Origin: Albula goreensis
Lineage: Eukaryota > Chordata > Actinopteri > Albuliformes > Albulidae
Assembly: GCA_022829145.1 (NCBI GenBank)
Contig: CM040748.1
Location: 25,986,501-26,050,500 of the forward strand
Length of the DNA: 64,000 nt
Reading direction: 5' to 3'
Position numbers and translations under genes: made by a program. Below, one piece after another: positions 9,850 through 64,000 of the stretch. Position 1 is the first letter of the stretch. The number at the start of each line of letters is the position of its first letter. Below the pieces are notes generated by a model. The model saw only the letters and a list, made by a program, of their open reading frames with translations, made no database searches and had not been told where the DNA came from.

Positions 9850-64000
<54,151 letters not shown>

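Follow-up and report, generated by a model that had tools for sequence, protein, structure and literature searches.

The closest described system is the N30 cassette (B1a, 10 residues) of mammalian MYH10. According to excerpts of two reports (PMC4557629, PMC7582472), N30 of mouse NMHC II-B is situated between exons 5 and 6, and NeuN, together with PSF/SFPQ, promotes its inclusion. The published B1 inserts of loop 1 are neuronal and 10 or 16 residues long, the B2 insert of IIB has 21 residues, and NM IIC carries an 8-residue C1 insert, a loop-1 cassette in a paralogous gene (passages of PMC10480317). The smooth-muscle SM-B insert (QGPSFSY) enters myh11 at the same junction and in the same phase. 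A search by title or abstract retrieved no paper on a fish exon of this kind, and we make no claim that it is unreported.

Here these systems are compared with a stretch of 64,000 nt of the Albula goreensis genome (contig CM040748.1, positions 25,986,501 to 26,050,500), referred to as the window. It holds part of a myh10 gene, of which a second copy is found on contig C22 at 4.08 Mb. The features around the loop-1 junction in the window are the following.

48359..48458, plus strand: myh10 exon 5 (P-loop GESGAGKT ... KGRKDHIP) with phase-0 donor GTGAGT; alignable with chain 4pd3 of human myosin IIB
49156..49177, plus strand: N30 acceptor region TTTGTTTATTTGCAACAAACAG; 20 of 22 nt are the same as in the C22 copy
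49166-49168 and 49176-49177, plus strand: TGC and AG within the acceptor region, read from the window letters
49178..49207, plus strand: N30 / B1 cassette exon, 30 nt, open frame; the C22 copy is identical at 26 of 30 nt
49208..49213, plus strand: donor of the GC type, GCAAGT, with the same six letters in the C22 copy
55453..55545, plus strand: myh10 exon 6 (GELERQLLQ...) with phase-0 acceptor TTTCAG, read from the window letters

The host gene had been taken for myosin IIB from the letters alone, and comparison with human myosins bears this out. The query joined nine exon pieces from the window copy into 348 residues, passing over two successive exons, one near 59128 (with a one-base gap) and one near 60014. 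It scores highest with human IIB, at 719.2 bits for chain 4pd3 and 717.1 bits for the Myosin-10 chain 9z3w. Myosin-9 follows at 653.4 bits, and the best Myosin-11 and Myosin-14 matches reach 623.6 and 614.4 bits. The corresponding pieces of the C22 copy give 710.9 (4pd3), 708.6 (9z3w) and 643.2 bits (Myosin-9). By these scores both copies are myh10, establishing the gene identity; another member of the family as host is rejected because both copies score highest on human myosin IIB. The two human IIB chains are uninserted in the alignment exactly at the point where N30 would enter, and the loop-1 junction is confirmed.

N30 reads CCT GAA TCG CCT AAA CCA GTG AAA CTC CAG, ten codons that are directly preceded by ...TTTGCAACAAACAG and directly followed by GCAAGT. 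Frame and splice sites are established from the letters: an AG acceptor and a CAG/GCAAGT donor, both also present in the C22 copy. Since the exon 5 and exon 6 junctions are both phase 0, 30 nt are frame-neutral; the intron that separates these exons measures 6,994 nt, cassettes counted in. The first-pass annotation described a frame-neutral 30-nt cassette between exons 5 and 6, with an AG before it and a GC donor after it, and at the DNA level this description is correct. Gene, exon 5/6 loop-1 junction, length and phase 0 are those of mammalian N30. The fish donor is of the GC type. We take the SPKPVK core to be common to the fish exon and the tetrapod insert (ESPKPVK in tetrapods, D for E on C22), and the residue before the final Q, L or P in the fish copies, to be H in tetrapods. 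The tetrapod N30 peptide strings did not appear in the literature searched.

Exons 5 to 7 searched against the genome (932 Mb, 208 contigs) give 69 matches. Eight places were looked at: seven contain loop-1 exons that are separate (the window, C22:4.08 Mb, C8:2.23 Mb, C20:14.19 Mb, C8:26.14 Mb, C22:5.09 Mb and C22:0.11 Mb) and one, on C7, is a single-frame place. The C22 copy of myh10 encodes PDSPKPVKPQ at the same exon 5/6 junction, and sequence 3' of the exon is alignable as well; the block holding N30 aligns with 82% identity over 97 columns (91.5 bits), which establishes conservation across the two gene copies. The four substitutions between the two exons comprise two silent ones and two that alter a residue (E/D, L/P). 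That related fish should keep the 30-nt frame had been named beforehand as a point on which the reading could fail; in a comparison within this genome alone, the frame is conserved, and SPKPVK is found in both copies, so that the cassette and its S-P-K-P motif are kept as proposed.

Along the whole gene, the copies differ at 173 of 454 fourfold sites (0.38; 0.53 with Jukes-Cantor correction) against 86 of 1231 residues, as counted in gap-free blocks from which the N30 and 18-nt blocks are excluded and whose ends may hold a few intron codons. This disproportion argues that the pair was under constraint, and by these counts the copies are old duplicates. N30 would thus be older than an old duplication, since so many fourfold sites separate the genes that carry it, and the earlier description of the cassette as ancient is supported. 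Contigs C8 and C22 are linked by three gene pairs (myh10, myh9-like and myh11-like), as expected of chromosomes doubled together, and the teleost whole-genome duplication would be the event concerned. The neuronal IIB insert would accordingly predate an old duplication in the ancestry of this fish and, considered together with tetrapods, go back to early bony vertebrates. An origin of that age opens the insert to study in fish models, in which both genes need editing wherever both copies are present.

We conclude, with a probability of about 0.92 for the whole explanation including the mechanism proposed below, that in 49178-49207 this fish has its orthologue of the N30 (B1) cassette of myh10. 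As far as can be judged from the DNA, the first-pass annotation read it rightly: the exon is genuine, anciently conserved and ordinary in kind.

Open frames with splice-like ends occur on both strands of the window, and N30 might be one of them, devoid of any exon function. A search of both strands of the 64 kb for open frames of 12-45 nt, a multiple of 3, between AG and G(T/C)(A/G)AGT gives 54 candidates, 27 on each strand, among which [ST]P.[KR] or SPKP occurs in N30 only. Against a chance frame, exon and flanks are conserved in the C22 copy, with 91.5 bits for the N30 block where shuffling the window's intron 100 times under a first-order Markov model gives 32.8 bits at best. A 31-nt N30 pattern with up to three mismatches matches two places genome-wide, the window and the C22 copy, both in myh10 genes, and the reversed pattern matches none genome-wide. 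The conserved C22 copy and the shuffle control lead us to reject the chance frame, whose likelihood we consider negligible. The cassette could also be a fossil, the window copy being a decaying duplicate in which N30 is no longer used. What speaks for this is that three coding exons of the window copy each show a one-base gap when set against C22, at the following places.

Within 59128-59157, inside the window: one-base gap, window copy versus C22
Within extended block 69701-69868: one-base gap, window copy versus C22
Within extended block 77894-78151: one-base gap, window copy versus C22

The C22 copy has no such coding gap within the compared blocks. If real, the gaps would truncate the product of the window copy whatever the splicing. 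They fall at short runs of a single base, as is typical of assembly errors, and are probably such errors; decay is the less likely cause because in other respects the window copy resembles human IIB no less than C22 does (719 versus 711 bits), and the excess of fourfold over residue differences points to constraint. Short frames are also seen among the protocadherins found elsewhere in the assembly, of which 150 of 200 candidates were scored; this does not decide between error and decay. On balance a fossil cassette is quite improbable.

It is rather unlikely, though less easily set aside, that the exon is real and ancient and has broad, heart or other-tissue use in fish, its restriction to neurons being a feature of tetrapods. 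Xenopus has a non-neural 16-residue insert, which counts in favour of such a history. A TGC at -12 to -10 from N30 in both copies argues against it, as weak evidence because a TGC often falls close to an acceptor by chance. An Srrm3/4-type neuronal microexon would carry a UGC and a pyrimidine tract immediately ahead of its acceptor; pyrimidines make up 60% of the 20 nt that precede the AG of N30. Part of a zebrafish study ties TGC upstream of the acceptor to likely Srrm4 control of microexons (PMC12626420); a word search of PMC12626424 returns no mention of myosin, myh10 or myh9. For the orthologue of N30 as we read it, the GC donor and the conserved flanks are in keeping with regulated splicing. 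They would tie inclusion to a tissue factor, for which Rbfox3/NeuN, acting in neurons with cofactors as it does in mammals, is the most likely candidate. NeuN/Rbfox3 would be expected to act through a UGCAUG-bearing element 3' of the exon, and two Rbfox-type sites lie downstream of the cassettes.

49238..49243, plus strand: TGCATG, a site of Rbfox type whose first base is 31 nt beyond the last base of N30; absent from the C22 copy
51411..51416, plus strand: TGCATG, 175 nt downstream of the 18-nt exon described below; on C22, 193 nt downstream of its own exon, outside the aligned blocks

The intron after N30 holds four TGCATG (49238, 49937, 51411 and 55060), and there is no enrichment of this motif: four in about 6.2 kb compare with 45 in the 64-kb window, which is the window average. 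Enrichment of Rbfox sites is dropped as evidence since the density is average and the proximal site is not found in C22. The similar distance of a TGCATG past the 18-nt exon in both copies may be due to chance.

The exon 5-exon 6 intron has two strong conserved blocks between the window and C22, one containing N30 and the other a second in-frame exon; a further 17-nt intron match is weak (E 0.014).

51219..51236, plus strand: second cassette microexon, 18 nt, SGPLFY, acceptor CCATAG, donor GTGAGT; from the conserved block and the candidate scan

The block at 51179-51266 scores 71.6 bits, with 79% identity over 92 columns and a best shuffle of 32.8, so that conservation of the 18-nt exon is also established; its counterpart in the same intron on C22 encodes SGSLLY. 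The two cassettes contribute 10 and 6 residues, and their sum of 16 agrees with the published B1 lengths of 10 and 16, from which we infer that the fish has both parts. The lengths likewise suggest that mammalian B1b of NM IIB (16 residues) is built from the corresponding two exons. SGPLFY and SGSLLY resemble by eye the SM-B insert, which differs in having seven residues and in belonging to myh11. The loop-2 intron contains a 63-nt frame, EIQIIQRASFYDNVSSLHDPPV, at L046:725-787, starting 725 bases past the end of the window. Its C22 counterpart is EIETFQRACFYETVSLPSDHTV, the last residue being shared with the next exon. This candidate exon matches the B2 insert in length and site, and the three IIB cassettes are thus present, twice, in this fish. 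Neither the 18-nt partner of N30 nor the B2-type exon, which lies shortly past the window, was noticed in the earlier reading.

Inclusion of N30 would add ten residues to loop 1, beside the ATP-binding site, and inclusion of N30 together with the 18-nt exon would add sixteen; with both skipped, exon 5 would join exon 6 in frame to give the uninserted motor. The longer loop is expected to speed the motor cycle modestly, through ADP release. A review, in the section cited, states that a longer loop 1 accelerates ADP release and sliding (PMC11335295), and the 10-residue form is credited with only a small increase (PMC10480317, in part). The claim that the insert alters motor kinetics has to be softened in degree. 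The insert would also bring an additional proline-directed serine site. PESP in the window copy, which we take to fit the P-x-S-P proline-directed form, is PDSP on C22; the serine is kept in both copies and is a putative phosphorylation site.

A candidate scan over the seven loop-1 introns, which also lists frames inside flanking exons and a few others, extends the comparison to the rest of the family. Candidates were chosen for conservation within a pair or for a strong acceptor. The myh9-like pair (L042, C8:26.14 Mb; L043, C22:5.09 Mb) has candidates of 21 nt each, NSAILSH and TSAVLSH, with a donor GTGAGTT or similar to it, in a block of 85% identity over 68 columns. In the myh11-like pair, the candidates are QQSGSQLAY (27 nt) and AGSQFAY (21 nt), in a block of 76% over 68 columns. 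The gene on C20 has a candidate of only 12 nt, SVQY, to be set beside the C1 insert of NM IIC and without a second copy in the genome for comparison. Identity was checked in three of the five non-myh10 genes. One myh9-like gene matches Myosin-9 best (161.2 bits versus 147.4 for IIB). One myh11-like gene, queried with its microexon, matches smooth-muscle myosin best, and AGSQFAY aligns to the solved insert QGPSFSY, an alignment that serves as positive control for the scan. The C20 paralogue gives 146.6 bits with myosin IIB (4pd3) and 142.9 bits with Myosin-14, and these close values lead us to leave it unnamed (myh14 or other). No SPKP occurs in the forward frames of the examined stretches of the five non-myh10 genes, myh11-like introns included. 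On contig C8, myh10 (26.03 Mb) and the myh9-like gene (26.14 Mb) are about 100 kb apart on opposite strands.

Read jointly, these candidates would make the loop-1 junction a splice hotspot inherited throughout the non-muscle/smooth myosin II family. On this scheme, an ancestral short exon whose last residue is Y or H (SGPLFY, AGSQFAY, NSAILSH/TSAVLSH, perhaps SVQY) would be older than the family expansion, N30 would be a gain of the myh10 line alone, and fish would have kept a myh9 loop-1 exon lost or rarely used in mammals. We regard the odds of this scheme as even; the common origin of the short exons is suggested by a likeness seen by eye. The candidate exon of fish myh9, predicted from sequence, is the least expected item here. 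Mouse RT-PCR detected no loop-1 splicing of NMHC IIA, low or cell-specific use not being ruled out, in the portion cited of PMC10480317; the family comparison predicts such splicing for fish myh9. Reviews, in the passages cited, give an A1 form (PMC11335295) and nervous-system variants of both MYH9 and MYH10 at loops 1 and 2 (PMC7566000). The A1 form and the MYH9 loop-1 variants count against novelty of the fish myh9 exon.

Other conserved elements are found between the myh10 copies. Two intron 4 blocks lie at 47866-47963 (73% over 101 columns) and 48119-48143 (27 columns), and a 15-nt exact match at extended coordinates 72676-72690 is intronic; no exon frame is recognised by eye in these three places. 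Intron 7 has U12-like signals at window positions 56743 and 57217-57239, GTATCC follows exon 7 in seven of seven paralogues examined, and the branch-like site TCCTTGAC stands just before the intron 7 acceptor in both myh10 copies. The intron 7 donor of the C22 copy continues as GTATCCATGG instead of GTATCCT, which we take to be off the U12 consensus and which weakens the U12-like reading. Elsewhere in the assembly, two large protocadherin clusters are located at C2:0.63-1.12 Mb and C6:25.0-25.3 Mb; among the 150 scored matches, most C6 frames are long and many C2 frames are short.
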